36,722 nt of DNA from a virus: positions 1-36,722 of IMG/VR virus record IMGVR_UViG_3300037042_001073, one strand, 5' to 3'. Within the stretch, counting starts at the first letter, position 1, and every line of letters begins with the position of its first letter. The notes beneath the pieces are model-generated. The model did no database searches. It had not been told where the DNA came from and saw only the letters and a list, made by a program, of their open reading frames with translations. Position numbers and translations under genes: made by a program. Of this stretch, positions 3,768 to 22,888 are shown one piece after another.

Positions 3768-3796
3768 TTACAGTCCAATTAGACTGTTTTTTGTTT
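3768..3796. repeat. 29-bp repeat with palindrome, copy 1
   Basis: Identical over 29 bp to 4616-4644. Core is CAGTCCAATTAGACTG (3771-3786), an almost perfect palindrome (CAGTC/GACTG arms), followed on the plus strand by TTTTTTG. It lies just upstream of the possible minus-strand ORF starting at 3754. Operator is favoured, since no plus-strand gene ends here to need a terminator. Confidence 0.6.
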
Positions 3797-3889
3797 CATC
3801 CTAACTTTTTCACCTTATACTATATGGCAATTTTCCACCTACTTGACTGCTTTGTAGCTAACTATCATCAAGGTGTATTTTATTAAATA

Positions 3890-3905
3890 CAGTCCAATTG
3901 GACTG
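3890..3905. repeat. 16-bp perfect palindrome, variant copy
   Basis: CAGTCCAATTGGACTG is perfectly self-complementary and differs from the other two copies by one base (G for A at position 11), followed by CTTTTTTTG on the plus strand. It could fold as a 6-bp stem with an AATT loop, or be bound as an operator by a dimeric repressor. Confidence 0.55.
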
Positions 3906-3934
3906 CTTTTTTTGCTGTATGGTTGTGAATCGAA

Positions 3935-4020: not shown

Positions 4021-4587
4021 TTATGCAGTCACTAAGCTATTTAAATACTCGATTGCTAGTTTTACTGATTCATTCGTGAATTTACCTGATAAAATCAACT
4101 CTCCAAATTTTATAGATTTTTCGCACTCTTTATTCGTAGTAGCTTCAGTAGCTTCAGTAGCTTCAGTAGCTTCAGTAGCTTTCTTTTTAGGGGTGCAAAA
4201 TCTGTTGAAATTATCTACGGCAACATGATTTCCGATATGTCCAGATTCAAGGTATTCGGCTAACTTATCAATATTGCCGAAGGCTTTTATAAGCCTATTC
4301 GCATAACTTTCTGAAATAGTATAATTTTGCTCAATCCAAAAGGCAACATTGACTTTTAGCCCTATGTTTTTCCTTTGTTGCTTTTCTTCCGCACTCAAAA
4401 ATCTTGCTTTCGCACCTTCAATGAGTCCGCCTAAGTGGATCGCAAGGCGTAAGTTCTCTTTACTATCACAAGTTAGCTTGTGTAAGTATTCTTTAATTCT
4501 GTCAGTTTCAAATACCTTTTCATTTTCTTTTAGGTATTGAATGAACACTTCTGTATTCTTCATTGTGTCAACTGCTGCATTTCCCAT
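4021..4587 (-). CDS. DUF3102-like putative DNA-binding protein (188 aa)
   Basis: Start set at the ATG giving MGNAAVDTMKNTE; a longer frame exists only with a TTG inside the palindromic repeat. Residues about 45-110 (HLGGLIEGAKA, then FWIEQNYTISESYANRLIKAF) match the general pattern of DUF3102-type proteins, where a gatekeeping helix precedes a helix-turn-helix reading as ISxxYAxRLI. A repeat of Glu-Ala-Thr units follows (residues about 136-150), acting as a linker to a short C-terminal helical domain. A copy of the 29-bp palindromic repeat lies 31 bp upstream, so autoregulation through it is plausible. It is followed by a terminator at 3935-3963. DNA binding is inferred from the fold pattern only. 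Confidence 0.6.
   Translation of the reverse strand: MGNAAVDTMKNTEVFIQYLKENEKVFETDRIKEYLHKLTCDSKENLRLAIHLGGLIEGAKARFLSAEEKQQRKNIGLKVNVAFWIEQNYTISESYANRLIKAFGNIDKLAEYLESGHIGNHVAVDNFNRFCTPKKKATEATEATEATEATTNKECEKSIKFGELILSGKFTNESVKLAIEYLNSLVTA
4139..4181. repeat. 9-bp in-frame tandem repeat (GTAGCTTCA, four full units plus a partial one)
   Basis: Four exact GTAGCTTCA units from 4139 to 4174 and a partial fifth. On the coding (minus) strand they encode a Glu-Ala-Thr series between the HTH-like domain and the C-terminal domain of the gene at 4021-4587. Exact DNA identity suggests recent slippage-driven expansion, so copy number may vary between relatives. Confidence 0.8.
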
Positions 4588-4615
4588 TTTTTTTAGTTTT
4601 AAATTAATGTATAAA

Positions 4616-4644
4616 TTACAGTCCAATTAGACTGTTTTTTGTTT
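4616..4644. repeat. 29-bp repeat with palindrome, copy 2
   Basis: Identical over 29 bp to 3768-3796, core CAGTCCAATTAGACTG at 4619-4634. It lies 31 bp upstream of the ATG of the DUF3102-like gene (4587, minus strand), a natural place for an operator. Confidence 0.6.
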
Positions 4645-4652
4645 TTTACCAA

Positions 4653-5798: not shown

Positions 5799-5829
5799 TT
5801 TGGTTGGTATTAGATTTTTGGTATATTTG
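5799..5829 (+). promoter_or_regulatory. Consensus Bacteroidota promoter for groEL-groES
   Basis: TTTG (5799-5802), 19 bp, TATATTTG (5822-5829): a full match to the Bacteroidota -33/-7 consensus. Predicted start near 5833, leader about 32 nt. It decides the groEL start: a GTG overlapping the -7 element lies before the transcript begins and cannot be used. Confidence 0.8.
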
Positions 5830-5864
5830 TGGCATCGAATCACACAAATCAAAAATCAAATCAA

Positions 5865-7478
5865 ATGAACCAATCGGGATACAGTCCAAAGGATTTACAC
5901 TTCGGCCAATCGGGTCGCCAAAAATTGATTAGGGGCATTAGCAAGATGTCGCAAGCGGTCAAGAGTACTTTAGGACCGGGGGGCAACACGGTGGTCATTG
6001 AGTCTCCGCATCACACGCATGGCATTACGGTAACCAAGGATGGGGTAACGGTGGCTAAAGCCATTGATCTACTTGACCCGGTGGAGAACCTAGCGGTAAA
6101 GATGCTCAGGGAGGCGGCGGACCGCACGGCGACAAGTGCAGGTGATGGGACGACAACGGCGATTGTGTTGACCGAGGCGTTGGTGATGGCCGGTGACGAG
6201 CTTATCACGGCGGACGTAAACCGCACGGCGGTATTGAGGAGCATGGTGGAGGTGACCGACAAGGTGGTGGACAAGTTGAGGGAAGGGAGTCAGAAGGTCA
6301 GCAAGTCGATGTTGACCGATGTGGCTACGATTTCGGCAAATAATGACCCAACAGTTGGAGGCATCATCGCAGATGTCTACAAAAAGGTCGGGAATAACGG
6401 CATAGTGACCGTAGAACGCAGCCAAACGGCTGAGACGTATTCTGAGGTCACTAAAGGACTAAAAGTCAACAGAGGCTTTCTTTCGCCACTTTTCGTAAAC
6501 AACCAACGCAAGGACGAGTGTATCCTTGAGGACGCGATGGTGTTAGTGGCGGATATGGAGATTAGTAATATTTTGCAGTTGGAGTTGGTGTTAAAGCCGA
6601 TTATATCGGAGGGTAAGCGCTTGCTTATCATCTCTCCGTGCAATACAAATGTGGTCAACACGTTGGCAGCCAATGTGATAAAAGGGAACCTGAAGGTTTG
6701 TGCGATTCCGCCTCCTAATTTCGGGTACAAGCAGCATGAGTTGATGCAAGATATCGCCATCAGCGTTGGTGCAACCTACTACAGCGAGAAAACGGGAGAC
6801 GACCTGAGCCATATCAACTACGGGGACTTGGGGCATGCAGCAAAAATCATCGTGGGGTCGGACAGTACCGTCATCATAAAGTCAAATGTTCTGTCAGATC
6901 AGTCGAAAATTGACGAGCGTGTGAAGCAACTATGGGAGGCTAACAAGTTGGCGACCAAAAAGGGCGATAAGGACTTCATTATGGAGCGCATTGCCTCCCT
7001 AACCGGTGGCATCGGCGTGATTCATGTGGGCGGCAACACTGACCTAGAGCAAAAAGAGCTATATGACCGAGTGGATGACGCTGTCTGTGCGGTAAGGTCA
7101 GCACTTGAGGAGGGAATTTTGCCCGGAGCAGGCAAAGCACTCTATGACATTGACGTGGATGGCATTGTTGGCTGTGAAGACCTGACAAAAGAACAGGTCA
7201 TTGCGCGCAACATCATCAAAACCGCCCTTCAAGCTCCGCTAAAACAGATTTTGGCGAACGTAGGGTTAGCGCAGAAAGACATTTACACAGATCAAGTAGC
7301 TATTGGCGAAGGGTATAACATCAAGACCAATAAAATGGGGAATCTCATTGAGATGGGCGTGATAGACCCCGTGAAGGTAACACGATCGGCACTTCAAAAT
7401 GCGGTCAGCGTAGCTGTTACCATACTGAGTACCAATGCAATTGTTACAATGGCACGCGTTTATGAGGCACAATCATGA
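5865..7478 (+). CDS. groEL: Phage-encoded group I chaperonin GroEL (Hsp60)
   Basis: ATP-driven folding chamber subunit, 537 residues (usual length about 540-548). Equatorial ATP-site motifs are intact: TLGPG at 35-39, KDG with D59, GDGTTT with D94, and VDDAV at 403-407, where the second Asp (D405) matches the E. coli ATP-hydrolysis residue D398. The apical region has RGFLSPLFVN (203-212) at the substrate/GroES-binding site, with Phe and Leu replacing the usual Tyr residues. Start is the ATG giving MNQSGYSPKD. The C-terminal GGM-rich tail is missing; the protein ends VYEAQS. It overlaps groES by 4 bp (ATGA), with groEL first, the reverse of the common bacterial groES-groEL order. All catalytic residues are present, so an active chaperonin is likely, presumably serving virion proteins. 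Confidence 0.95.
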   Translation: MNQSGYSPKDLHFGQSGRQKLIRGISKMSQAVKSTLGPGGNTVVIESPHHTHGITVTKDGVTVAKAIDLLDPVENLAVKMLREAADRTATSAGDGTTTAIVLTEALVMAGDELITADVNRTAVLRSMVEVTDKVVDKLREGSQKVSKSMLTDVATISANNDPTVGGIIADVYKKVGNNGIVTVERSQTAETYSEVTKGLKVNRGFLSPLFVNNQRKDECILEDAMVLVADMEISNILQLELVLKPIISEGKRLLIISPCNTNVVNTLAANVIKGNLKVCAIPPPNFGYKQHELMQDIAISVGATYYSEKTGDDLSHINYGDLGHAAKIIVGSDSTVIIKSNVLSDQSKIDERVKQLWEANKLATKKGDKDFIMERIASLTGGIGVIHVGGNTDLEQKELYDRVDDAVCAVRSALEEGILPGAGKALYDIDVDGIVGCEDLTKEQVIARNIIKTALQAPLKQILANVGLAQKDIYTDQVAIGEGYNIKTNKMGNLIEMGVIDPVKVTRSALQNAVSVAVTILSTNAIVTMARVYEAQS

Positions 7479-7732
7479 GACCAATAGGACATAACATTGT
7501 CGTTAAAAATATTGAGGAGGAGGTGACAACCGCATCGGGGCTAGTCCTATCAGGAGAAGACACCAATCAGCTCCGCTACCGAAAGGCGCAGGTCATCGAG
7601 CCGGGAACAGACGTGACGGTCATTAACAAAGACGACATCATCTACTACGACAAAACACATGGCTTCACCATGATAATTGAGGATGCTCAGTACACCATCA
7701 TTCAGCTTCGGGACGTGGTGGTTGTTTTGTAG
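7475..7732 (+). CDS. groES: Short GroES co-chaperonin
   Basis: An 85-residue GroES (usually about 95-100). The N-terminal strand (PIGHNIVVKNI) and mobile loop with SGLVLSG (21-27, matching the GGIVL motif that contacts GroEL) are present. The segment that forms the roof of the GroES dome is cut down to about PGTDVTVINKDD, so the heptamer may have an open top, as known for phage T4 Gp31. The C-terminus (TIIQLRDVVVVL) matches the final beta strand. It follows groEL with a 4-bp overlap and its last 35 bp overlap, tail to tail, the end of the winged-helix gene on the other strand. Assignment is strong from motif and operon. Confidence 0.88.
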   Translation: MRPIGHNIVVKNIEEEVTTASGLVLSGEDTNQLRYRKAQVIEPGTDVTVINKDDIIYYDKTHGFTMIIEDAQYTIIQLRDVVVVL

Positions 7733-8144
7733 TGGCTTTTCTAAGCTCCATGATAAAGTACCGGTACACCTTATCGGTATAACTTACATTTCTTTTAAAC
7801 ATTGGGTTCACTTCGCTCTTGATAGGGATTTCTTCTCCGTTTAGGTAGCTGTAGATTGACTCAATCATGCGCATGGACTTCATGGATAGTCCGTACTTTT
7901 TGCGTCTTCCAATCATTACATTCTTATAAGATTCAATCCATCCGTTCTCGCGGAGCTTTTCAAACCGCTGCTTATCCCAAGGCAATAGGGCATTGAACTC
8001 ATCAAACTTATCACGGGTAAAATAAGGCTCGGTGTATAAAAACAGGAGCATATCAAGATCTGCTTGGCAAACTCCGTACTTTACTTTCATGTACTGACGG
8101 ATGGGTCTCCAATACTTTAGGAAGTCTGACTTCTTTGATTTCAT
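7698..8144 (-). CDS. MarR-like winged helix-turn-helix regulator
   Basis: A 148-residue putative DNA-binding protein. Residues about 25-105 follow the MarR order: a helix (CQADLDMLLFLY), a recognition-helix region (FTRDKFDEF then WDKQRFEKLRENGWI), a beta-wing (NVMIGRRKKYGLS) and a long helix (MKSMRMIESIYSYL). Residues 106-148 are an extra, Pro-ending tail. It is the only minus-strand gene between the chaperonins and the virion genes and is divergent from the late operon, with only 41 bp between the two start codons. Its promoter and that of the late operon face each other in this gap, so it probably represses or balances its own and late transcription. Its 3' end overlaps groES by 35 bp with no terminator between. 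Confidence 0.72.
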   Translation of the reverse strand: MKSKKSDFLKYWRPIRQYMKVKYGVCQADLDMLLFLYTEPYFTRDKFDEFNALLPWDKQRFEKLRENGWIESYKNVMIGRRKKYGLSMKSMRMIESIYSYLNGEEIPIKSEVNPMFKRNVSYTDKVYRYFIMELRKATTKQPPRPEAE

Positions 8145-8166
8145 TTGATTTTATTTTATACATTTG
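8134..8166 (+). promoter_or_regulatory. Late-operon promoter (rightward)
   Basis: TTTG (8134-8137), 21 bp, TACATTTG (8159-8166): full Bacteroidota-type promoter. The -33 element lies inside the winged-helix coding sequence. Predicted start near 8170, 16 nt before the ATG at 8186. Confidence 0.7.
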
Positions 8167-8170
8167 CCGT

Positions 8171-8202
8171 CAAAGTTACATCATTATGTCTAATATCTCA
8201 AA
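8171..8202 (-). promoter_or_regulatory. Regulator promoter (leftward), face to face with the late promoter
   Basis: On the minus strand TTTG (plus 8199-8202), 20 bp, TAACTTTG (plus 8171-8178). Predicted start near 8167, 23 nt before the regulator's ATG. The two -7 elements form an inverted repeat TTTG-CCGT-CAAA (8163-8174), so RNA polymerase cannot occupy both promoters at once. Confidence 0.65.
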
Positions 8203-8431
8203 AGATTCAACGGAGAAGCCTGATAAGGAATTGGCTGCAAGGGATAGTCAGATTGCTGACTTGAGGGCTGATGTTGGCATTTTAAAGCAACATATCAACA
8301 ATCGCGCTACGGCGGAAGCCAAGGCTGCATCAAACAAGCGCAAACTCTCGAACACTGTTCAAGGGTTAGGTAGATTAAGCGGTCTCCAAAATACATTAGG
8401 TACTCAATCCATAAATACAAAAACAAAATGA
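8186..8431 (+). CDS. Small coiled-coil protein (81 aa), first gene of the late operon
   Basis: Start set at the ATG giving MSNISKDSTEKPDKEL; the longer frame begins upstream of the predicted transcript start. Residues about 13-45 have a heptad pattern (ELAARDSQIADLRADVGILKQ split by charged residues) and suggest a short coiled coil; the C-terminal half is Ser/Thr/Lys-rich and probably flexible. It overlaps the next small gene by 4 bp (ATGA). Function unknown; as the first late gene it may be a virion or assembly accessory protein. Confidence 0.6.
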   Translation: MSNISKDSTEKPDKELAARDSQIADLRADVGILKQHINNRATAEAKAASNKRKLSNTVQGLGRLSGLQNTLGTQSINTKTK

Positions 8432-8577
8432 AAAGCACACCAAATCTTCCTGCGTCATCACGCATGCAAATGCCATCAGGTGGTGGCATGAAAACACCGT
8501 CAATGCCTAAAGGCTCAAATCCTGTTACTAAAAAAGTAATGGCAGGAGCCAAGGGAAAAGGGATGAAAAAGAAATAA
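8428..8577 (+). CDS. Very basic small protein (49 aa)
   Basis: Read directly from the sequence: begins MKSTPNLPASSRMQMPSG and ends KGKGMKKK. It is rich in Met, Gly, Pro and Lys and has no hydrophobic core, so it is probably disordered. The ATG overlaps the stop of the preceding gene (ATGA) and the next gene starts 2 bp after its stop, which supports real translation. Similar Lys/Gly-rich mini-proteins are common in late operons of Bacteroidota phages, from memory; role unknown, possibly nucleic-acid or capsid binding. Confidence 0.5.
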   Translation: MKSTPNLPASSRMQMPSGGGMKTPSMPKGSNPVTKKVMAGAKGKGMKKK

Positions 8578-8579
8578 TT

Positions 8580-8753
8580 ATGGCAAAGTCAATCAAAAAA
8601 GCCGTAGCTAAGAAAGGTATTTCTGAGTACGGTGGCATGGAGAAGTATCCATCCAAAGGAGCGATGAAAGCTCATGAGAAAGCTGAACCTAAGAAGGTAG
8701 AGACGGCCGAGAAAAAAGCATTTATGAAAATGATAATGAAAAAGAAAAAATAA
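8580..8753 (+). CDS. Very basic small protein (57 aa)
   Basis: Begins MAKSIKKAVAKKGISEYGGM, has a central EKYPSKGAMKAHEKAE stretch and a Lys-rich end (MIMKKKK). It lies 2 bp after the previous stop and 2 bp before the next start, so it is part of a tightly packed series. Net charge is strongly positive, as in its neighbour at 8428. Perhaps a DNA- or RNA-associated virion component; unproven. Confidence 0.5.
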   Translation: MAKSIKKAVAKKGISEYGGMEKYPSKGAMKAHEKAEPKKVETAEKKAFMKMIMKKKK

Positions 8754-8755
8754 TT

Positions 8756-8914
8756 ATGGCAAAGAATAAATTAGTAGAGCCTACTATTGAAGAACCAACG
8801 GCAGAGACTCCAATGGAAATTAATGTAGTCATTGACGCTCCTGTTGAGATTGTTGAGACCGTTGAGGCTGAGAACAATCAGCCCGGTGTTAACACTCGTG
8901 CATATCGTTCATAA
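8756..8914 (+). CDS. Acidic small protein (52 aa)
   Basis: Begins MAKNKLVEPTIEEPTAE and is dominated by Glu, Val, Pro and Thr, with no Lys after the N-terminus. It is the acidic counterpart of the two basic mini-proteins just upstream, 2 bp away, and could pair with them electrostatically, which is speculation. The C-terminus NTRAYRS is the only basic part. Not recognised. Confidence 0.5.
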   Translation: MAKNKLVEPTIEEPTAETPMEINVVIDAPVEIVETVEAENNQPGVNTRAYRS

Positions 8915-8917
8915 GTT

Positions 8918-9064
8918 ATGGATGACAAGTCTAAAATGAGCTGCAACCATCCTGTCCGGTCTGATAGACCGGGTAAGAACCTATGGGCAGGACAGTGCGG
9001 TGCAACCACAAGTAATCCAAAAGAAAGTCAAATAATCCTAAGAGTGACAATAATAATGAGCTAA
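8918..9064 (+). CDS. Short protein (48 aa), probably internally deleted or frameshifted
   Basis: Begins MDDKSKMSCNHPVRSDRPGK, then NLWAGQCGATTSNPK. From memory, related phage proteins share the first part (CNxPxxSDRPGKK) and end in a WACKNLWAG-type sequence, but have several dozen residues between. Here the two ends are joined directly, which looks like an internal deletion. After SNPK the frame turns to unlike sequence (ESQIILRVTIIMS) and stops, while another frame continues as good protein (see 9016-9315). I treat this as the 5' part of a degraded or frameshifted locus. Confidence 0.45.
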   Translation: MDDKSKMSCNHPVRSDRPGKNLWAGQCGATTSNPKESQIILRVTIIMS

Positions 9065-9315
9065 GGCAATCAGCGAAACGATGGGATAAAAGAGATAATG
9101 AGTATCGTCAAAATGAAGACGGAAAAGGCATTGCATTTCCTACTGTCTTTCCAAGAGATAGAGCAGGAACAAAATCTCACAACGCTAAAGAGTGGATAGA
9201 ATTAGACGGAAAAACAGCAATAGATACTGCTGCTGCAAGAGGGGAGTTATATCAATTTAAAAATTCTGCTAATGCTGAAAAGTGGGCAGCAGGAGAATAT
9301 AAAAAAAATAAGTAA
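9016..9315 (+). pseudogene. Start-less ORF, C-terminal domain of a broken gene
   Basis: This frame is open for 99 codons but contains no ATG, GTG or TTG at a usable position, yet the protein is of good quality: a charged helical start (ELRQSAKRWDKRDNEYRQ), then IAFPTVFPRDRAGTKSH, AKEWIELDGK, and FKNSANAEKWAAGEYKK. The end resembles a small C-terminal domain common in phage virion proteins (xFPTxFPxxxxGT...Wxxl...A.e.A..GelxxF.s...A..fa.GsyK), by recollection. It lies in the -1 frame relative to the 48-residue ORF and overlaps it. A real frameshift, an assembly indel or use of an unusual start are the options. Confidence 0.5.
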
Positions 9316-9325
9316 ATTTCAGCTT

Positions 9326-9487
9326 ATGGCAACACAAAAACCTAAAGGAAGAGATTATCCATTATCTCCAACACCTATACCTGCTATTGCTCCTGTAGCA
9401 GCCACAAACAAGATAATAGGGCGTACAATTGTAAATATACCTGCTCCAATAGAAGGACGCGCAATCGTAAATAAAGGGCAGGTGTAA
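9326..9487 (+). CDS. Small Pro/Ala/Ile-rich protein (53 aa)
   Basis: Start set at the ATG giving MATQKPKGRDYPLSPTP; upstream frame is an unused extension. The sequence is rich in Pro, Ala, Ile and Val, with a repeated idea (GRTIVNIPAP, GRAIVNKGQV), suggesting a small beta peptide. It lies between the broken gene and the gene at 9536. Function unknown. Confidence 0.5.
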   Translation: MATQKPKGRDYPLSPTPIPAIAPVAATNKIIGRTIVNIPAPIEGRAIVNKGQV

Positions 9488-9523
9488 TCTGTGGAAACTA
9501 AAAAATAACAAGCAAAATATTAA

Positions 9524-9531
9524 TATATTTG
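9524..9531 (+). promoter_or_regulatory. -7 element immediately before the gene at 9536
   Basis: TATATTTG matches TAnnTTTG. No -33 match is seen. The element ends 4 bp before the ATG, so any transcript from it would be leaderless or nearly so. Confidence 0.4.
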
Positions 9532-9535
9532 TGCT

Positions 9536-9715
9536 ATGGGAGTAAAGGTCAATGTACGTAGTAGAGGACTTGGCGACACCATTGCTAAGGTCACGCGAGT
9601 AACCGGTATTGAAAGAGTCGTAAAGACTGTCGTTAAGGCAGTTACGGGCGACGAAGATTGCGGTTGCGACAAAAGAATAGACATATTAAATAGGGTATTC
9701 CCTTATCAAAACTAA
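9536..9715 (+). CDS. Small conserved phage protein with CGCxKR...FPY end (59 aa)
   Basis: Begins MGVKVNVRSRGLGDTIAKVT, with an amphipathic helix, and ends DCGCDKRIDILNRVFPYQN. From memory, the pattern CGCxKRxxxLNxxFPY at the C-terminus recurs in small proteins of Bacteroidota and other phages; its role is unknown. The two cysteines could bind a metal or form a redox pair. The start is the only ATG in frame and lies 4 bp behind a -7 element. Confidence 0.6.
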   Translation: MGVKVNVRSRGLGDTIAKVTRVTGIERVVKTVVKAVTGDEDCGCDKRIDILNRVFPYQN

Positions 9716-9719
9716 AACA

Positions 9720-10187
9720 ATGGCAGCACAAAAACTACAAGTCGGAAGAGCATTAGCAGTATTGCCAAGCGACAATACGGACATTCCATTTCCTATGGAA
9801 GTAGCAATCGGAACGGCATCGGGCGGTTCGGCAACTACATTAGTGGATGCTACTGCTACTTTTATTACTAGCGGAGTGAAGCCGGGAGATATTATCTATA
9901 ACATAGGAACGGGGGCTGCAACAACAGTTCTTGGCGTTAATAGCGAGACCACTATTATGACAATAGGTGGTGCTGCTTTTGCTGCTACTAACACTTATGT
10001 TATCTATCAAGGTAGTAATAATGATGGATGTGTGTTATACATAGGAGTAGGAGGAGATCTTGATATTATAACTGTTGGAGGAGATCAGGTGACACTAGTA
10101 AATGTGTTGTCAGGTCAGTTTATTCCAATCCAAGTAAAACGAGTATTGACATCAAGTACTGTATCATCTGTATTAGCTCTTTGGTAA
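9720..10187 (+). CDS. Virion spike-base/decoration-like protein (155 aa)
   Basis: A Gly/Ala/Thr/Val-rich beta protein. The C-terminal 50 residues (LYIGVGGDLDIITVGGDQV, then FIPIQVKRVL, SSVLALW) match, from memory, the spike-base domain of the RCAP_rcc01079 type, in which a short beta-strand series ends in IxVKRVxxxxTTAxxIxALW. An inserted segment (about residues 38-96, with VDATATFITSGVKPGDIIYN) resembles segments in the ring protein at 22903 and possibly the capsid protein. It stands just before a small repeat peptide and the fibre gene, so it may anchor the fibre. Confidence 0.65.
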   Translation: MAAQKLQVGRALAVLPSDNTDIPFPMEVAIGTASGGSATTLVDATATFITSGVKPGDIIYNIGTGAATTVLGVNSETTIMTIGGAAFAATNTYVIYQGSNNDGCVLYIGVGGDLDIITVGGDQVTLVNVLSGQFIPIQVKRVLTSSTVSSVLALW

Positions 10188-10188
10188 T

Positions 10189-10341
10189 ATGAATAATGGA
10201 CTAGCTATTTGCATCAACAGTCTAATGATTGTTGGTTCAGTACGAGGAGCAACTCCTCCTCCTACTATCTTAAATATTGAGCTTCGTGAGGACGGAGGGT
10301 ATGAGCTTCGTGAAGATGGGGGATTAGAAGTACGTCAATAG
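10189..10341 (+). CDS. Small protein with LREDGG repeat (50 aa)
   Basis: Begins MNNGLAICINSLMIVGSVRG, with a short hydrophobic stretch, and ends in a duplicated motif (ELREDGGYELREDGGLEVRQ), also visible at DNA level as two GAGCTTCGTGARGA blocks. It lies 1 bp after the stop of the spike-base-like gene and 16 bp before the fibre gene. LREDGG repeats are frequent in phage tail-associated proteins, from memory. Probably a virion accessory peptide. Confidence 0.5.
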   Translation: MNNGLAICINSLMIVGSVRGATPPPTILNIELREDGGYELREDGGLEVRQ

Positions 10342-10357
10342 TTTAAAAAAGAATAAA

Positions 10358-11626
10358 ATGGCAGATAAGAAAGTAAGTCAAGAAACCGACCTAGGCTATG
10401 CGGCAATAGAGAATGACGTGTTTTATCGCATCATAAAGCAAGGCATCACGTATAAGCAGTCTTACTTGGACCTTTTTGATTATATCAATAATAATTTTTG
10501 CACCCTTCAGAATGTTTTAGATAATAGCCATAGTCTTATAGATGGCATCTTTCTAGTTGGAGCAGCAGCAGGGGCAGGTAGTACAGGAGTAGAAGTATCC
10601 TTTATCGGAACAGAGTCGGGTGCAGGTAATACAGGAAGTTATGTAACAGCCATTGGGTACAGGGCTGCGAATTTAAATACTGCTAGTGGGGCAATTGCAC
10701 TAGGAGGCGATAGCCTTACGGGGAATCATGGTCTTGCTCCTATAGGAATTGGGTTTGAGTCAGGAAGAAATAATTTAGGAGACGGATGCGTTATGATTGG
10801 GTCATATTCAGGAAGATCCAATCAAGGAGATTATATTACTACTGTTGGATGGAGCGCAGGAGACGGTGGAACTGAGAGTAATTTAACGGCGATCGGTGCA
10901 GGTGCAGGGATTGGAAACACAGCTCCTAATTTAACAGCAATCGGCGTGGGGGCGGGGGCATTAAATGGCGCAGCCAATTCAGTAGCAATCGGAATAGACG
11001 CAGGAAAAGCATCGACAGGAGTTAGTACTATTGCAATTGGGGAAAGTGTGGCGTTTTTAAATACAGGGAATCATTCTGTTTTGTTAGGATATAATGCAGG
11101 TAGTGTTAATGCAGGAGGAAGCTGTATTTTTATAGGGAAATATGCGGGATATGATTTTGATGGATCTTTAGTGGGGAATACGGGGCAATCTGTAATTGGA
11201 CTAGGGCATCAAAGCGCAGCCGCAAATACAGGATTAGGTGTAATCGCGATAGGTGATTATTCTGCATATCAGAACACAGCCGATGATAATATTGCGATCG
11301 GTTATGCAGCACTAAGGAGTAATATTAAATCAAAGAATATAGGGATAGGATATAGTGCAGGAGAGAACAATTCCGGAGGAAACTCTATTTTTATAGGAGA
11401 TAGAGCAGGAAAAGGTAATGGAGGAGATGACGTAATCGCACTAGGAAGTTCAGCAGCAGCTGATAATTTAGCTAGTGGGGTATTCGTTGTTTCAAATAGA
11501 TCTTTGCCAACATTTGCTGACGTTACAACAGCAGTGACATTCTTTTCTTCTGCGACATTAGCAGCATCTTGTTCTTATTTATATGTCGACTTAACAGACA
11601 ATACATTAAAAGCATATATAACATAA
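10358..11626 (+). CDS. Trimeric fibre/adhesin with YadA-head-like repeats (422 aa)
   Basis: Residues 1-50 form an N-terminal module (MADKKVSQETDLGYAA, then YKQSYLDLFDYINNNF) likely to attach to the virion. Residues about 75-370 consist of some 16 repeats of about 16-18 residues with the pattern xAIGxxAGxxNxG (AIGYRAANLNT, TAIGAGAGIGNT, AIGIDAGKAST, FIGDRAGKGNG). This is the left-handed beta-roll signature of YadA/Hep_Hag trimeric adhesin heads. The end (YLYVDLTDNTLKAYIT) is a short capping sequence. By family it binds surfaces, so receptor binding or capsid decoration is likely. It precedes the lysis genes. The repeats are also visible in the DNA and could recombine. Confidence 0.8.
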   Translation: MADKKVSQETDLGYAAIENDVFYRIIKQGITYKQSYLDLFDYINNNFCTLQNVLDNSHSLIDGIFLVGAAAGAGSTGVEVSFIGTESGAGNTGSYVTAIGYRAANLNTASGAIALGGDSLTGNHGLAPIGIGFESGRNNLGDGCVMIGSYSGRSNQGDYITTVGWSAGDGGTESNLTAIGAGAGIGNTAPNLTAIGVGAGALNGAANSVAIGIDAGKASTGVSTIAIGESVAFLNTGNHSVLLGYNAGSVNAGGSCIFIGKYAGYDFDGSLVGNTGQSVIGLGHQSAAANTGLGVIAIGDYSAYQNTADDNIAIGYAALRSNIKSKNIGIGYSAGENNSGGNSIFIGDRAGKGNGGDDVIALGSSAAADNLASGVFVVSNRSLPTFADVTTAVTFFSSATLAASCSYLYVDLTDNTLKAYIT

Positions 11627-11627
11627 T

Positions 11628-11843
11628 ATGATTTTAAATCTTATAAAAATAGAGGACATAAAGGTTGTCGGACTAAACACGCTTTGCGTTATTATGCTTA
11701 GACTAGGCGATATTACTCCTGAACTATCAGCCATATTATTAATGGCTACCATAGCCTACACTATAGCTAGGACATGTAATGAAATTCAGAAATTCAAGTG
11801 GGGGGGAGGGCATGACAGCCCTAGCTCCCATAAAAGTGATTAA
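11628..11843 (+). CDS. Small membrane protein next to the endolysin (71 aa)
   Basis: MILNLIKIEDIKVVGLNT is followed by hydrophobic segments at about residues 13-27 and 35-50 and a soluble tail (GGGHDSPSSHKSD). It is placed 1 bp after the fibre stop and 11 bp before the M15 endolysin, so a lysis role (holin, pinholin or anti-holin) is likely, but a better holin candidate follows the endolysin. Either may be the actual holin. Confidence 0.5.
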   Translation: MILNLIKIEDIKVVGLNTLCVIMLRLGDITPELSAILLMATIAYTIARTCNEIQKFKWGGGHDSPSSHKSD

Positions 11844-11854
11844 CATATAATGGC

Positions 11855-12304
11855 ATGAATCTAACAAATAGCTTCACTTTAAAAGAGATGACTGAGAGTA
11901 TTACGGCTACTCGGTTAGGCATTGATAATACTCCTTCGGAGACTGTTATCAAAAATCTTTTATTGTTATGTCAAAAGATTCTTCAACCTCTGCGCGATCA
12001 CATGGGCGATCCGATAAAGGTGAACAGTGGGTACAGGTCGCCGGCGCTGAATAAGAAAATTGGAGGGAGTAGTAAGACAAGTCAGCACTGTCTAGGGCAA
12101 GCTGCAGACATGACATGCGGAGAAAGAACGGCAGAGATTTATGAATTTATCAAGAATAATCTTATCTTCGACCAATTAATTTGGGAATTCGGCGATGATA
12201 CTATGCCAATATGGATTCACGTCTCTTATTCCTCAACAAAAAATCGCAAGGAATGTTTGCGGTCATATAAACTAAATGGTAAAACAGTTTACACGAAAAC
12301 ATGA
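11855..12304 (+). CDS. Peptidase M15A-type endolysin
   Basis: Zinc peptidase of 149 residues predicted to cut peptide cross-links of peptidoglycan. The family signature is intact: SGYRS (58-62), SQHxxGxAAD giving zinc ligands H78 and D85, and WIHVS giving the third ligand H122. Length fits the single-domain Peptidase_M15_3 type. No signal peptide is seen, so release to the cell wall needs a holin. It overlaps the holin gene by 4 bp (ATGA). An earlier ATG at 11850 is closed by an immediate stop, fixing the start. High confidence for family and lysis role; exact bond cut is not known from sequence. Confidence 0.88.
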   Translation: MNLTNSFTLKEMTESITATRLGIDNTPSETVIKNLLLLCQKILQPLRDHMGDPIKVNSGYRSPALNKKIGGSSKTSQHCLGQAADMTCGERTAEIYEFIKNNLIFDQLIWEFGDDTMPIWIHVSYSSTKNRKECLRSYKLNGKTVYTKT

Positions 12305-12534
12305 AATCTACCTACCTAACAATTAACATTGCAGATCTTTTAAAGGGAGCAATGGTAGCGGCCGGCACAGTTGTATTATCGCTAATTGGCGGAATGGTAC
12401 AGTCAGGAACAACGCCTACAGAGGCCGACTTAATACTAAGTGTAAAAGCAGGTGGCATCGCAGCCATTAGTTATTTAGTAAAGAATTTGTTTACCAACTC
12501 AAACGATCAAATATTTAAATCAGAATCAAATTAA
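12301..12534 (+). CDS. Putative holin (77 aa)
   Basis: Two hydrophobic helices at about residues 13-33 (LLKGAMVAAGTVVLSLIGGMV) and 46-62 (SVKAGGIAAISYLVKNL), connected by a short polar loop, and a polar C-terminus (SNDQIFKSESN). This is a class II holin layout. It starts inside the endolysin stop (ATGA), the classical coupling in a lysis cassette. No family was firmly recognised. Placement and topology give good but not conclusive support. Confidence 0.65.
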   Translation: MKSTYLTINIADLLKGAMVAAGTVVLSLIGGMVQSGTTPTEADLILSVKAGGIAAISYLVKNLFTNSNDQIFKSESN

Positions 12535-12777
12535 ATGATAATGGAAAAGGTAGTTTACTTAGAAAAGGAAGAATTGGAGAAAGTCCAATCAATGAACGCT
12601 GAGTTCACAAAAATGAAAGTAGCTCTTGGTGAAATGGAGCTTCGTAAGCAAGACATTATGTCTGCTATCAATGAGTTAAAGACTGCATTCGCAATTCATG
12701 AGAAATCATTGGTTGAGAAATATAGTCCTAACTCCATCATCAATATCCAAACAGGAGAAGTCACTCAGAAAAAATAA
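12535..12777 (+). CDS. Small coiled-coil protein (80 aa)
   Basis: Charged helical protein; residues about 8-60 have a continuous heptad-like pattern (ELEKVQSMNAEFTKMKVAL, then ELRKQDIMSAINELKTAF). The end INIQTGEV resembles a short beta hairpin. Two ATGs are possible (12535 or 12541); the first directly follows the holin stop. Family not recognised; such proteins downstream of lysis genes are often tail-fibre or scaffold chaperones in phages, which is only a possibility here. Confidence 0.55.
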   Translation: MIMEKVVYLEKEELEKVQSMNAEFTKMKVALGEMELRKQDIMSAINELKTAFAIHEKSLVEKYSPNSIINIQTGEVTQKK

Positions 12778-12783
12778 TATCCA

Positions 12784-13617
12784 ATGGCAAAAATAGGCTC
12801 ATACCCAAATGATAATGGCATTAGTTTTAGCGATAGGCTGATTGGTACAGATGCAGATAATAATGATGCAACAAATAACTATCTAATCTCAGATTTGATA
12901 GATTTCATCATAGCAAATGCTTCATTTGTGCCATATGACGGAGCTACTCAGAATGTAAATTTAGGTACTTACGTACTAATTGCAGGAAGTCTTCAGCTTT
13001 CTTCAAGCCTAGAGCTAGGAGCTAATAGCCCTTTATTTTTGAATGGAGATGAAGGCATTTTGGGTCAGCTATTGGTAAGTGTAGGGCCGGGATTTGCGCC
13101 TCAATGGATTGATGCTCCTTTTATTATTCCGGGAGCGCTGAAGTATGGGATGTTTCTTGCTAGCACGAGCCAAGCGGCTGCAGTTGTAGATACCGCATAC
13201 CCTATGATATTTGACATCACAGATAGCGATACTACAAATGGGATAACGGTAGAATCAAATGGAGTTAGCACTACGCGCATTACGCCATCTCGGACAGGGG
13301 TTTATAATGTTGAGGTATCTGCTCAGCTAAGAAGGGGAGCTGCAGGTGGAGCTGAGACAGTAAGCATTTGGATGAGAAAAGGAGGTGTTGATACAGCTTA
13401 CTCCAATAAAAATATCGGAGTTCCGGTAGATGCAGGAGCGCTTGTAGTTGCTACATGGAGTTTCCTTGCTAACATAAATACTGATGACGCAAACCCTTAT
13501 GTAGAAGTTGTGTGGGCAACATCGTCAACTGATATTTCTCTTGAATATTCAGCGCCTTTCGGAGTTGCTCCTGAGACACCAAGTATTACACTAACGGTAA
13601 CTCAGGTTAACGTGTAG
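12784..13617 (+). CDS. Fibre-like protein with C1q/TNF-like C-terminal domain (277 aa)
   Basis: The N-terminus (MAKIGSYPNDNGISFSDRLIGT, then NNYLISDLIDFI) is a virion-attachment-type module that I recall from many Bacteroidota phage proteins; it is comparable in layout to the start of the fibre at 10358. The C-terminal 135 residues (from about MIFDITDSD) alternate beta strands with the jelly-roll order of C1q/TNF-like domains (ITPSRTGVYNVEVSAQL, SIWMRKGGVDT, PYVEVVWAT, PSITLTVTQVNV). These domains trimerise and bind host surfaces. Likely a head or tail fibre. Domain call is by pattern. Confidence 0.65.
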   Translation: MAKIGSYPNDNGISFSDRLIGTDADNNDATNNYLISDLIDFIIANASFVPYDGATQNVNLGTYVLIAGSLQLSSSLELGANSPLFLNGDEGILGQLLVSVGPGFAPQWIDAPFIIPGALKYGMFLASTSQAAAVVDTAYPMIFDITDSDTTNGITVESNGVSTTRITPSRTGVYNVEVSAQLRRGAAGGAETVSIWMRKGGVDTAYSNKNIGVPVDAGALVVATWSFLANINTDDANPYVEVVWATSSTDISLEYSAPFGVAPETPSITLTVTQVNV

Positions 13618-13633
13618 TCTAACCTAACACTTT

Positions 13634-13861
13634 ATGGATATACGTAAAATCGCGATAGGTCCTGACTATAAAAACGGAGCTATGCACTATATTGTTGGGC
13701 AAAAAGTTCTTGGCGATACACATGAAATCCATCTTATAAGGCATAACGCAAGAACGAGCTTTATAGAAATCTATATTATTAATGGTAAGCAGGAAATTAT
13801 GCTATGGAAATCATTTAATTTATCCATGCCAATTTCTATTGAGTATAACATCAACTACTAA
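13634..13861 (+). CDS. Small conserved phage protein (75 aa)
   Basis: Begins MDIRKIAIGPDYKNGAMHY and ends FNLSMPISIEYNINY. The start IGPDYKxAMHY and the end MPISIEYNIN are patterns I recall from many Bacteroidota phages upstream of terminase genes, without known function. It is predicted beta-rich. The stop shares its last A with the ATG of the next gene (TAATG), so it is coupled with the GroES-like gene. Confidence 0.65.
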   Translation: MDIRKIAIGPDYKNGAMHYIVGQKVLGDTHEIHLIRHNARTSFIEIYIINGKQEIMLWKSFNLSMPISIEYNINY

Positions 13862-14424
13862 TGAAATCGCCATTTTACTTTATCGTTAGACCTAATAATG
13901 GTAAACGGTATGATAATACGAAAGAGATTGGAGGAGTGGAGTTAATAGTAAGTACCTCAGAAGAAGATCATAAGTTTTCAAATAGATATGCTATAGTAGT
14001 GGAAACGCCATTAGGGTACTCCGGTCCAATAATACCGGGTGATACTTTATTGGTACACCATAATGTATTCAAGTTCTACAACGACATAAAAGGAAGAACT
14101 AAAAGCGGTAAGAGTTTTTTTAAGGATGATAAGTTCTTTATTGAGCCGGACCAATTCTTCTTATTCAAGAGGGGGGAGAAATGGTTTTCGTACGATCGCT
14201 ACTGTTTCGTAAAGCCTTTGCCGGCAACAGAATCATATATCAAGAAGCCATTCTCGGAAGAGCCTCTTATGGGGATTATGAAATATCCCAATGAATACTT
14301 AATTAGCAAAGGTGTTATGGCAGGGGATTTGGTATGCTTTGCTCCGGATAGTGAGTATGAGTTTACTGTTGACGGTGAGAAGTTGTATAGAATGTACGAC
14401 CACCAAATAACTATTAAGCTATGA
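13861..14424 (+). CDS. Tandem GroES-like (Cpn20-like) protein, 187 aa
   Basis: Read as two GroES-type beta-barrels in a row. Half 1 (about 4-105): a strand FYFIVRP, a loop with IGGVELIVS at the place of the GGIVL mobile loop, RYAIVVETPLG, then IIPGDTLLVHHN matching the GroES VKVGDxVLF strand, and DKFFIEPDQFFLF as the closing strand. Half 2 (about 106-187): DRYCFVKPLP, GVMAGDLVCFAPDSEYEF, then VDGEKLYRMYDHQITI, close in pattern to the GroES end. A mobile loop is not evident in half 2. Chloroplast Cpn20 has the same two-domain design. It is coupled on both sides (TAATG before, ATGA after) directly ahead of the terminase genes. From memory, this family is common in Bacteroidota phages as hypothetical. 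Fold inference only. Confidence 0.55.
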   Translation: MKSPFYFIVRPNNGKRYDNTKEIGGVELIVSTSEEDHKFSNRYAIVVETPLGYSGPIIPGDTLLVHHNVFKFYNDIKGRTKSGKSFFKDDKFFIEPDQFFLFKRGEKWFSYDRYCFVKPLPATESYIKKPFSEEPLMGIMKYPNEYLISKGVMAGDLVCFAPDSEYEFTVDGEKLYRMYDHQITIKL

Positions 14425-14717
14425 AAAGCAATAAGGATATAAAGCAGCGCATTATAAATGCAGGGTACGAAGCCGTTGAGCAGCTTATAAAAGTTGCCAA
14501 GGAGGATATTATAAAGCGAAATATTGACGAAGATGAGTTCCTTGAGTTGGCTGCGGATAAGCTAAAGAATGCAGCAGCTACGAAGAAATTGGCTATTTTT
14601 GATGCGTTTGAGATATTAAGCAGGATTGAGGCCGAAACAGAAAACCTTGAACTCCCTGCTGAAGAAGGAAAGGGACAAAAAAAACAAGGCTTTGCTGAAC
14701 GAAACTCAAGATCATAA
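14421..14717 (+). CDS. Putative terminase small subunit (98 aa)
   Basis: Small helical protein (MKSNKDIKQRIINAGYEAVEQ, later DEFLELAADKLKNAAATKKLAIFDAFEILSRIEAE) located directly before the large terminase. Size, helical content and position fit a small terminase subunit that selects phage DNA for packaging, but no DNA-binding motif is certain. It starts within the stop of the previous gene (ATGA). It overlaps the large-subunit frame by 92 bp if the upstream TTG is used, or by 26 bp with the nearest one. An eight-A run at 14677-14684 in the overlap may allow slippage between frames. Confidence 0.55.
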   Translation: MKSNKDIKQRIINAGYEAVEQLIKVAKEDIIKRNIDEDEFLELAADKLKNAAATKKLAIFDAFEILSRIEAETENLELPAEEGKGQKKQGFAERNSRS

Positions 14718-16947
14718 TTCACTATATGTAGTCTTAAAAGACCATATTTCAACCGACATCATCAAAAGGAAGAATCGGGCGCGAACATGGTATTATGGAT
14801 ATAACGAGAAGTATGATGTCGTTGTTATTTCCAAGACAGGGCAGATAGGAGAGATTATTAGTATAGGAGGGCTTATAATAGCACTTCCGCTTGATCCTGA
14901 TGATTGCCATAAAAGAAGTTTTTCAAGGTCAGAGCAATATTGGGGAAGGACACCATTACCTAAAGAGCTTTCTAAAATAAAGTCTGTTTTTCAATGGAAT
15001 GAAATGCCTTCTTCTTTTAAATCTACATGGGTTGATTATATTGAGAAACAGTTTGACTATCGAGAGGGGGGCTTTTGGTTTTGGAACTGTGGAGTAAAAA
15101 CATACATAACAGGGGCTCATTGGATGTATCTTCAATGGTCAAGTATTGACATTGGGTATCCCGATTATCGAGAGGCAAATAGGATATTTTGGTTTTTTTG
15201 GGAAGCATGTAAAGCTGACGACAGGTCTTTTGGGGAGTGTTATCTCAAGATCCGCCGTTCGGGATTTTCATTCATGGCTTCATCAGAAGGGGTAAACATA
15301 GGCACAATAGTTCGCGATGCGCGTATCGGGGTCTTATCTAAGACCGGTGCGGATGCCAAGAAGATGTTCACCGATAAGATTGTCCCTATCAATAGTAAAC
15401 TTCCATTCTTCTTCAAGCCTATTATGGATGGTATGGACAAGCCAAAGACTGAGTTAGCGTTCCGTGTGCCGGCATCTAAGATTACCAAGAAGAATATGCA
15501 CGATACTGCCAATAACGAGTATGATGGGTTAGATACGACCATTGATTGGAAGAATACCGAAGAGAACTCCTATGACGGAGAGAAGCTGAAGCTACTCCTC
15601 CACGATGAAAGTGGGAAGTGGGTGAAGCCAAATAACATTCAAAACAATTGGCGCGTAACTAAGACCTGTCTTCGATTAGGAGGCAAGATTATTGGCAAGT
15701 GCATGATGGGTTCTACCTCTAATGCGTTGAGTAAAGGAGGGGATAACTTCAAGAAACTATATGAAGACTCTAAGCTATCTTCTCCTCGTAATGCCAATGG
15801 GCAGACTAAAAGCGGATTGTATGCTTTATTTATCCCTATGGAGTGGAACTTGGAAGGGTTTATTGATAGATATGGCATGCCTGTCTTTAGAAAACCTCTC
15901 AATCCGATAAGAGGAATAGACGATAAGATGATTTCCAATGGCGCTATCGACTATTGGGAAGCGGAGGTGGAGTCATTGAAAAACGACTCCGATGCGTTGA
16001 ATGAGTTTTATCGTCAGTTTCCAAGAACAGAGTCGCATGCGTTCAGAGATGAGAGCAAGCAATCGTTATTCAACCTTACTAAGATCTATCAGCAGATAGA
16101 TTTCAATGATGCTATGATTAAGGAGCATTACCTTACTCGTGGCAACTTCCATTGGAAGAATGGAGAGAAAGATACCACTGTGGTTTGGACTCCCGATAAG
16201 CATGGTCGGTTCTTGGTTAGCTGGATACCGCCATTGCATCTTCAGAATAGGTACTATGAAAAGAATGGAACATTTCACCCTTTGAATGACCATATAGGAT
16301 CGTTTGGATGTGACCCTTATGATATTTCAGCCGTAGTTGGGGGGCGTGGGTCTAATGGAGCATTGCATGGTCTGACTAAGTTTCACATGGATGATGGCCC
16401 TTCAAATGAGTTTTTCTTGGAATACATTGCAAGACCGCAGACTGCAGAGATATTCTTTGAGGATGTGCTGATGGCTTGTGTGTTCTATGGTATGCCGGTG
16501 TTGGCAGAGAATAATAAGCCAAGGTTATTGTATCACCTTAAAAATAGAGGATATAGAGGGTTCTCATTGAACAGACCGGATAAGCCTAAGCATAAGTTAT
16601 CGGCGACAGAAAAAGAGCTTGGTGGAATACCTAATACTTCGGAGGACGTAAAGCAATCTCATGCTTCGGCAATCGAGTCTTATATTGAGAGATATGTAGG
16701 CTTTGATTTGATAAATGCTTACCGACCTTCCGATGAAATAGGTACGATGCCATTTACACGAACGCTAGAAAGTTGGGCTAAATTTGATATTAACGACAGA
16801 ACGAAGTTTGATGCTTCCATCAGTTCAGGATTAGCAATAATGGCAAACCAAAAACACCTGTATGTTCCTGAGAAAAAAGAATCAAAAATTAGCATTAACT
16901 TCGCAAGATACAGTAATGATGGAAATATAAGCCAATTAATTAAATGA
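14626..16947 (+). CDS. Terminase large subunit (packaging ATPase and nuclease)
   Basis: DNA-packaging motor of 773 residues. The ATPase domain has a deviant Walker A (KIRRSGFS, 208-215), Walker B LKLLLHDE (321-328, D327/E328) and a coupling motif MGSTSN (361-366). The C-terminal RNase H-like nuclease has GCDPYD (D563), VLAENN (E628) and KFDAS (D729) as likely metal ligands. No ATG occurs before residue 127, although the first 126 residues look conserved (SLYVVLKDHI), so a TTG start (14626, 14647 or 14692) or a frameshift from the small-subunit ORF is needed. It overlaps the portal gene by 4 bp (ATGA). Type is that of Bacteroidota podoviruses, including crAss-like phages. Confidence 0.88.
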   Translation: MRPKQKTLNSLLKKERDKKNKALLNETQDHNSLYVVLKDHISTDIIKRKNRARTWYYGYNEKYDVVVISKTGQIGEIISIGGLIIALPLDPDDCHKRSFSRSEQYWGRTPLPKELSKIKSVFQWNEMPSSFKSTWVDYIEKQFDYREGGFWFWNCGVKTYITGAHWMYLQWSSIDIGYPDYREANRIFWFFWEACKADDRSFGECYLKIRRSGFSFMASSEGVNIGTIVRDARIGVLSKTGADAKKMFTDKIVPINSKLPFFFKPIMDGMDKPKTELAFRVPASKITKKNMHDTANNEYDGLDTTIDWKNTEENSYDGEKLKLLLHDESGKWVKPNNIQNNWRVTKTCLRLGGKIIGKCMMGSTSNALSKGGDNFKKLYEDSKLSSPRNANGQTKSGLYALFIPMEWNLEGFIDRYGMPVFRKPLNPIRGIDDKMISNGAIDYWEAEVESLKNDSDALNEFYRQFPRTESHAFRDESKQSLFNLTKIYQQIDFNDAMIKEHYLTRGNFHWKNGEKDTTVVWTPDKHGRFLVSWIPPLHLQNRYYEKNGTFHPLNDHIGSFGCDPYDISAVVGGRGSNGALHGLTKFHMDDGPSNEFFLEYIARPQTAEIFFEDVLMACVFYGMPVLAENNKPRLLYHLKNRGYRGFSLNRPDKPKHKLSATEKELGGIPNTSEDVKQSHASAIESYIERYVGFDLINAYRPSDEIGTMPFTRTLESWAKFDINDRTKFDASISSGLAIMANQKHLYVPEKKESKISINFARYSNDGNISQLIK

Positions 16948-19382: not shown

Positions 19383-19401
19383 AAAGTTAAAAAATATTGT
19401 A

Positions 19402-19409
19402 TAAATTTG
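19402..19409 (+). promoter_or_regulatory. -7 element for scaffold and capsid genes
   Basis: TAAATTTG matches TAnnTTTG, with no good -33. Predicted start near 19413, 18 nt before the scaffold ATG. A dedicated capsid promoter would fit the high demand for capsid protein. Confidence 0.45.
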
Positions 19410-19430
19410 TCCAAACTAAAATTTAATCAA

Positions 19431-20549
19431 ATGGAATTCAAATCTGTAAAAGTACTAGGAGAAACTGAGGTTAAGAGCGCTCAGGAGATAGAACAAGAGT
19501 TGCTTAAAAAACACGAACAAGAAAATGGTGGTAGCAACGATAATCCTCCTCCTGCGGATGATCTTAAAAAAGAAGAATCCCCTGCAGATAACCTCAAGAA
19601 AGAGGAAGTTCCTATGGAGCTAAAAGAAGAAGACGTTCTTTCATATATTGCCAAAAGATACAACAAGCCAATTAATTCATTTGATGAGTTGATGGCTGAA
19701 AGAAAAGAGAACGAAGAGCTACCTGAAGATGTGGCTACGTTCTTGAAATATAAAAAAGAAACTGGGCGCGGCTTCGATGATTTCTTAAAGTTAAGAAAGG
19801 ATTACGATGCCATAAACTCTGAATCCTTACTCAAGGAGTACTTGCTATCAACGCAAGATGGACTTGATGAAGAAGACATTGAAGTTATGTTAGACGATTA
19901 TCGTTTTGACGAAGATGTTGATGATGAGTCTACGGTTAAAAAAGTGAAGATTGCAACAAAGAAAATGGTTGCGGAAGCAAAGAAATACTTCAACACTCAA
20001 AAAGAAAAATACAAGATGCCCCTTGAGTCAAGTGGAACATCCGTTTCTTCTGAAGAGAAAGAGCAGTATGAATTGTATAAGCAATATTTAAGTGAGGCTA
20101 AGACCACTGAGGAGGAGAGCCAACGCAAGCGCGATTGGTTCAGTCAAAAGACAAATGAAGTTTTTGGTAATGAGTTCAAAGGTTTTGAATTTAACGTCAA
20201 CGACAAGAAGATTTCTTTTACTCCGGGTGACACTGCAGAAATTAAGAAGCTACAATCAAATCCTTCAAACTTTATAAATAAGTATTTGGATGACAAAGGG
20301 CTAATTAAAGATGCAATAGGATACCACAGGTCTTTAGCGGTAGCAATGAACCCTGAGAAGTTTGCAAAATTCTTCTACGAACAGGGATTGGCTGACGCAA
20401 CGGAAGACGTGATGCGCAAGACAAAGAATATAAACATGTCTGAACGCAGAGCGCCTGAAATTACTAAGTCAACAGAAGGAGTACAGGTGAGGGCGGTAAA
20501 CCCTGACTCCGGTAAAAAATTAATAATCCGCAGTGCTAAAAAACTATAA
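19431..20549 (+). CDS. Putative capsid scaffolding protein (372 aa)
   Basis: Start is the ATG giving MEFKSVKVLGETEV; the upstream TTG lies within the -7 element. Highly charged and mostly helical, with an acidic N-terminal third containing two similar blocks (ADDLKKEESPADNLKKEE), a long helical middle and a basic C-terminus (SGKKLIIRSAKKL) that could bind the capsid protein. This composition and place, between portal and major capsid gene, are typical of scaffolds in podoviruses. No protease domain is seen. Confidence 0.7.
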   Translation: MEFKSVKVLGETEVKSAQEIEQELLKKHEQENGGSNDNPPPADDLKKEESPADNLKKEEVPMELKEEDVLSYIAKRYNKPINSFDELMAERKENEELPEDVATFLKYKKETGRGFDDFLKLRKDYDAINSESLLKEYLLSTQDGLDEEDIEVMLDDYRFDEDVDDESTVKKVKIATKKMVAEAKKYFNTQKEKYKMPLESSGTSVSSEEKEQYELYKQYLSEAKTTEEESQRKRDWFSQKTNEVFGNEFKGFEFNVNDKKISFTPGDTAEIKKLQSNPSNFINKYLDDKGLIKDAIGYHRSLAVAMNPEKFAKFFYEQGLADATEDVMRKTKNINMSERRAPEITKSTEGVQVRAVNPDSGKKLIIRSAKKL

Positions 20550-20561
20550 AACTAAAACAAA

Positions 20562-21992: not shown

Positions 21993-22006
21993 TATTAATG
22001 TTGAGT

Positions 22007-22042
22007 AAAAAGGGGTGTGTCTTCAAGGCACACTCCCTTTTT
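22007..22042 (+). terminator. Rho-independent terminator after the capsid gene
   Basis: Arms AAAAAGGGGTGTG and CACAC-T-CCCTTTTT pair over 13 bp with one bulged T; loop TCTTCAAGG; the 3' arm ends in T5. It lies about 15 bp after the capsid stop and before the next gene, whose transcription would need read-through or another promoter. Confidence 0.8.
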
Positions 22043-22849: not shown

Positions 22850-22878
22850 GGAGGGTGTCTATGCACCCTCTTTTTTTT
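22850..22878 (+). terminator. Perfect rho-independent terminator before the neck/tail genes
   Basis: GAGGGTG, 6-nt loop, CACCCTC (7-bp perfect stem), followed by eight T. A -7 promoter element begins 2 bp after it. Confidence 0.88.
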
Positions 22879-22880
22879 CC

Positions 22881-22888
22881 TATATTTG
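22881..22888 (+). promoter_or_regulatory. -7 element directly after the terminator
   Basis: TATATTTG matches TAnnTTTG. No -33 match; that position is occupied by the terminator stem. Predicted start near 22892 with an 11-nt leader. It restarts transcription for neck, tail and cargo genes. Confidence 0.5.

Follow-up and report, generated by a model that had tools for sequence, protein, structure and literature searches.

Predicted facing promoters between a MarR-like regulator gene and late genes, conserved among related phages

Genes and predicted promoters at the junction

The window, by which we mean the whole stretch of 36,722 nucleotides analysed here (IMG/VR virus record IMGVR_UViG_3300037042_001073), contains a junction with the gene for a wHTH regulator of 148 amino acids (7698–8144, − strand) on one side and lysis, packaging and virion genes on the other. 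The first rightward gene (8186–8431, + strand, with its ATG at 8186) encodes 81 amino acids and is variable among relatives. The regulator gene is convergent with the phage-encoded groEL and groES (5829–7732, + strand) and overlaps groES tail to tail by 35 bp (7698–7732). Comparable spacing is seen in many relatives, and as a result of the overlap the two transcripts may be mutually antisense. The order groEL, groES (+), regulator (−) recurs with the same strands in about 80 loci, where the + strand beyond the regulator carries the gene for the spike-base-like protein and further late genes. In phage phi18:3 some of the proteins encoded past the junction carry a structural annotation that is based on MS/MS.

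We also note two repeated features in the region of leftward genes. A recurring motif, CAGTCCAATTAGACTGTTTTTTG or CAGTCCAATTGGACTGCTTTTTT, with a hairpin and a T-run was picked out by eye at 3772–3800, 3891–3915 and 4619–4645 and possibly represents repeated terminators or binding sites. A perfect 9-bp tandem repeat, AGTAGCTTC, is present in 4.9 copies at 4138–4181, within an ORF on the − strand (4021–4626), and encodes ATEATEATE. An Rfam search of the window returned no RNA families.

Two predicted promoters occupy the junction, and both match the Bacteroidetes sigma-A −7 box TAnnTTTG. In the window each also has a TTTG at the spacing of about 19–22 nt that is expected of a −33 element, although relatives keep this feature less consistently (see below). 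On the + strand, the −33 TTTG (8134–8137) lies within the codons of the regulator, by which it is partly constrained, and is followed after 21 nt by the −7 box TACATTTG (8159–8166). The leftward elements, read on the − strand, are a TTTG within the rightward gene (8202–8199) and, 20 nt on, the −7 box TAACTTTG (8178–8171), so that the two −7 boxes face each other across 4 nt. The coordinates, sequences and spacings given in the preliminary description proved to be exact, and each −33 box does lie inside the opposite coding sequence, as it had claimed. The TTTG-CCGT-CAAA inverted repeat to which it drew attention is likewise present, but consists simply of the two −7 boxes, with a spacer of 2–6 nt in relatives.

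The sigma-A box of Flavobacterium psychrophilum is located at −12 to −5 (PMC9723704), which places the predicted starts at 8171 (+) and 8166 (−), each at the edge of the opposing −7 box. The earlier estimates of about 8170 and 8167 were near these positions, although the exact positions shift slightly, and the predicted RNAs diverge without overlap. With the melted region taken as about −11 to +2, the predicted open complexes would cover approximately 8160–8173 and 8164–8177 and share a stretch of about 10 bp. Overlapping open complexes accommodate one RNA polymerase at a time, so simultaneous use of both promoters is sterically implausible. The mutually exclusive occupancy proposed earlier fits this overlap, and for the promoters as predicted here we regard it as well founded.

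Six copies of the combination TTTG-N19-23-TANNTTTG are present in the window, compared with 1.22 expected, and none of 100 shuffles reached six. The facing pair TANNTTTG-N0-8-CAAANNTA occurs once, and at least one was found in 42 of 500 shuffles (p about 0.08); the window by itself is suggestive of a facing pair, with chance possible. Promoters of the sigma-70 type (TTGACA/TATAAT) were also considered and rejected, as the scan gave five matches against 5.2 expected, none of them relevant.

Transcription from the rightward promoter would run from 8171 to 22036 on the + strand if it ends, as we suppose, at a terminator-like hairpin (22012–22036). This unit would contain small ORFs and the genes for a spike-base-like protein, an M15 peptidase, terminase, portal and a virion protein. 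The idea that the rightward promoter drives the virion operon stands to the extent that lysis genes and those for terminase and portal lie downstream of this promoter, but there is a separate −7 box, TAAATTTG (19402–19409, + strand), upstream of the gene after portal, and terminator-like hairpins are found on the + strand at 22012 and 22850. The box at 19402–19409 is probably an internal promoter of the capsid genes. In view of its conservation in 24 of 24 unique relatives we rejected the rightward promoter as the sole promoter of the virion operon; the rightward promoter thus does not govern all virion genes. Elsewhere in the virion cluster (22850–22888), a hairpin with a T-run is followed directly by a TATATTTG −7 box, placing terminator and promoter back to back.

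Conservation among close and distant relatives

Used as the query against IMG/VR, the regulator retrieved 13 close relatives; an alignment retrieved 335 loci, and we retained 80 of these. After removal of regulators that were more than 90% identical, 44 sequences remained, the window included. The region scored was the 70 nt adjoining the regulator start, with expectations obtained by dinucleotide shuffling of these sequences. The preliminary description had staked its reading on the conservation of at least one −7 element in related phages, and both are decisively present: the rightward box TANNTTTG, directed toward the late genes, in 43 of 44 sequences (3.6 expected) and the leftward box CAAANNTA in 36 of 44 (4.5 expected). 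The exact facing pair, with 0–8 nt between the boxes, was found in 34 of 44 sequences against 0.085 expected, where the common ancestry of the sequences means that all of these shuffle expectations overstate independence. If one mismatch is permitted in the leftward box the figure rises to 42 of 44. The exact pair is kept in 24 of 32 sequences at less than 80% regulator identity and in 11 of 15 at less than 70%, and the gap separating the facing boxes across relatives is 2, 3, 4, 5 or 6 nt. A rightward −33 TTTG at a spacer of 21–22 nt was found inside the regulator codons in 20 of 43 relatives. The leftward −33 TTTG (spacer 19–23 nt) was present in only six of 36 and is not conserved.

Two other promoters of these phages served as controls. 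The single promoter of groEL (5799–5829, + strand) has its sigma-A-type −7 box in all 59 unique relatives and a facing box in none of them, while the capsid-group promoter after portal, with its −7 box likewise in every one of 24, has a facing box in two. The difference from the junction is significant in both comparisons (Fisher p of 1e-18 for groEL and 3e-8 for the capsid group), indicating that the facing box goes with the divergent gene pair and does not generally occur downstream of promoters in these phages. Furthermore, the first rightward genes of the 44 relatives fall into 18 clusters, so the leftward box persists in leader regions of genes that are unrelated to one another. Sequence comparison thus confirms two conserved, predicted promoters at the junction, and as a sequence feature the facing pair is present across relatives far beyond chance.

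More distant phages show other arrangements. In Maribacter phage Panino the regulator operon is preceded by a facing pair without a gap, which makes up a perfect 16-bp palindrome, TATCTTTGCAAAGATA. Divergent −7 boxes are also found at the junction in MW202828, L018 and four Cellulophaga phages of the Pachyviridae (phi18:3, phi13:2, phi19:3 and phi46:3), but in back-to-back order, with separations in MW202828, L018 and the Cellulophaga phages of 2, 13 and 25 nt; the facing geometry is therefore not essential. Elemovirus and Pervagoviridae have a weak homologue of the regulator that is not divergent. Judged from these sequences, divergent promoters in close proximity occur widely, with the facing order being usual in the group to which the window belongs. 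In MW202828 (locus L020, 5930–5985) we noted by eye a 9-bp inverted repeat, TGTCACAAA/TTTGTGACA, which spans the back-to-back −7 boxes and is a candidate operator.

The regulator

The structure model of the regulator, based on 57 sequences (mean pLDDT 76), consists of four helices, wing strands and two further helices, which is the MarR topology. MarR-type structures dominate both the Foldseek and the VIA lists, with modest scores. The best Foldseek match is AbfR/MarR (E of 7e-4, TM about 0.46; MarR entries about 0.45–0.5), and VIA aligns the regulator with 2a61 at a Z score of 10.0 and an r.m.s. difference of 4.1 over 110 residues. The activation domain of T4 MotA is also among the structural matches (Z 8.4). 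PHROG 12817, a transcriptional regulator, was assigned to 26 of the 57 family members, and at the predicted recognition helix all 57 sequences have the residues Trp56 and Arg60. Pfam MarR profiles did not match the regulator, the best Pfam results being weak ones to SarA/Rot and PaaX, and the profile of the regulator had no significant match among PDB sequences. The model thus supports the earlier claim of a MarR-like protein; we regard the regulator as MarR-like in predicted fold and not as an established member of MarR, and in view of the Pfam result we use the former name.

Alignments of relatives did not reveal a conserved dyad that could be the operator of the regulator, and we infer its action at the junction only from position. 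A palindromic operator of fixed spacing was considered and discarded, given the spacer of 2–6 nt and a dyad that is not in excess in the window.

Proposed working of the pair and comparison with known systems

In our view, the best reading is that the pair sets the level of the regulator and the timing of the first late unit. Overlapping promoters of the host sigma-A type would fire divergently from −7 boxes that face each other 2–6 bp apart, the leftward one transcribing the wHTH regulator and the rightward one the first late unit with its small virion and lysis genes, terminase and portal. The regulator would act in the junction region, and the side that it favours would suppress the opposite side, giving self-limiting timing or dosage. 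A role in timing and autoregulation is likely, and the divergent pair is probably autoregulated; to the scheme as a whole, a compact, mutually exclusive and autoregulated divergent pair that a lytic phage uses to control timing or dosage, we would give about an even chance. Overlapping promoters do not by themselves amount to the switch proposed earlier: in E. coli, bidirectional promoters of basal strength compete little, although activation on one side can lead to repression on the other (PMC12825309). The relevance of exclusion would thus depend on promoter strength. We are doubtful of the more general proposal that facing, exclusive −7 promoters are a conserved class in which a MarR-like regulator and polymerase competition would together make up the central timing circuit of a widespread group of phages of Bacteroidetes, the direction being set by competition and not by distinct early and late promoter classes.

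The arrangement could also reflect genome compaction only, with ordinary promoters that overlap in a gap of about 40 bp, fire independently at moderate levels and leave the regulator free to act elsewhere. Such an explanation accords with gaps that are mostly very short, with the weak basal competition in E. coli (PMC12825309), with the different box order in MW202828, L018 and Pachyviridae and with an inter-box gap that varies from 2 to 6 nt. It does not readily account for near-consensus boxes kept over great divergence, or for Pachyviridae, where the gap is roughly 100 bp and the promoters are still close together, and we consider it possible but on the unlikely side. Another, improbable reading is that the regulator activates the rightward promoter, in the manner of T4 MotA or of SoxS at acrA/acrR, so that the rightward site is occupied, the leftward promoter is shut off and the regulator limits its own synthesis. 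Host-type late promoters require some source of timing, the MotA match would suit an activator, and in E. coli activation of one side does lead to repression of the other (PMC12825309). The wHTH matches are generic, however, and an activator site was not identified. Moreover, MarR-like proteins are mostly repressors.

It is highly unlikely that the TTTG-N-CAAA dyad is an operator of the regulator and not, in part, a leftward −7 box. Its symmetry and the inverted repeat seen by eye over the promoter pair of MW202828 would be in keeping with an operator, but the spacer varies by several nucleotides (2–6), the conserved unit reaches CAAANNTA, which is the full −7 consensus, the TTTGN2-7CAAA core shows no excess over chance in the window, and a divergent regulator requires some promoter in any case. 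We see equally little probability in a bistable lysis/latency switch of the CI/Cro type, whether for a carrier state or for lysogeny. A repressor-like gene is indeed divergent at overlapping promoters, and carrier-like delayed lysis has been reported for crAss001 (PMC8375218). The phage of the window is not a close crAss relative, however: its TerL is related to those of MW202828 (the nearest annotated complete genome, 76.5% identical), Elemovirus, Pachyviridae and Pervagoviridae, and is only about 21–33% identical to those of crAss-like records, with E values of 2e-5 or weaker. The crAss-like assignment implied earlier is thus not supported, and the carrier-state argument is not directly transferable. 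In addition, the first rightward gene is not conserved and has no regulator match, a second repressor was not recognised and the capsid gene group is served by a separate promoter. Prophages were not found among 84,980 cellular species genomes, where the regulator had three matches, all in short MAG contigs; MW202828 has no annotated integrase; and for Panino, which has one, neither maintenance nor integration of the phage was seen (PMC11590407). A latency switch of the kind envisaged in the preliminary description is accordingly unlikely; most likely the pair is not a lysogeny switch, and our preferred reading places it in lytic phages. The literature searched contained no transcriptome papers for phi38:1 or other close isolates.

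Phage transcriptional control in Bacteroidetes is hardly known. The junction provides a control element that is precisely located and deeply conserved, with predictions at the level of single bases, and isolated relatives have versions of it, facing in Panino and back-to-back in the Cellulophaga phages. It makes testable the notion of phage timing without a phage-specific promoter class.

Several known systems resemble the phage locus in part. In autoregulated divergent operons of the MarR family a wHTH protein is divergent from its target operon, as it is here; the phage locus differs in its setting, in lacking a Pfam MarR match and in that an operator was not found. Phage switches of the CI/Cro type also have divergent promoters around a regulator gene, whereas no second repressor or prophage is recognised for the present locus. 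On plasmid pLS20 a regulator and an operon likewise have divergent promoters that overlap (PMC4207663), but this is a Gram-positive plasmid with DNA looping. The bidirectional promoters of E. coli and Salmonella have the same divergent, overlapping transcription, often of a regulator and its target, and polymerase bound in one direction blocks the other (PMC12825309; PMC10268837). According to the same sources these promoters share a −10 element, and 10, 18 or 23 bp commonly separate their starts. In contrast, two separate TAnnTTTG boxes with 2–6 nt between them face each other in the phage pair, in place of the shared symmetric −10 by which bidirectional promoters are defined in E. coli, and the predicted starts are about 3–7 bp apart. 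Although we do not class it as a member, the phage pair may work like one bidirectional promoter.
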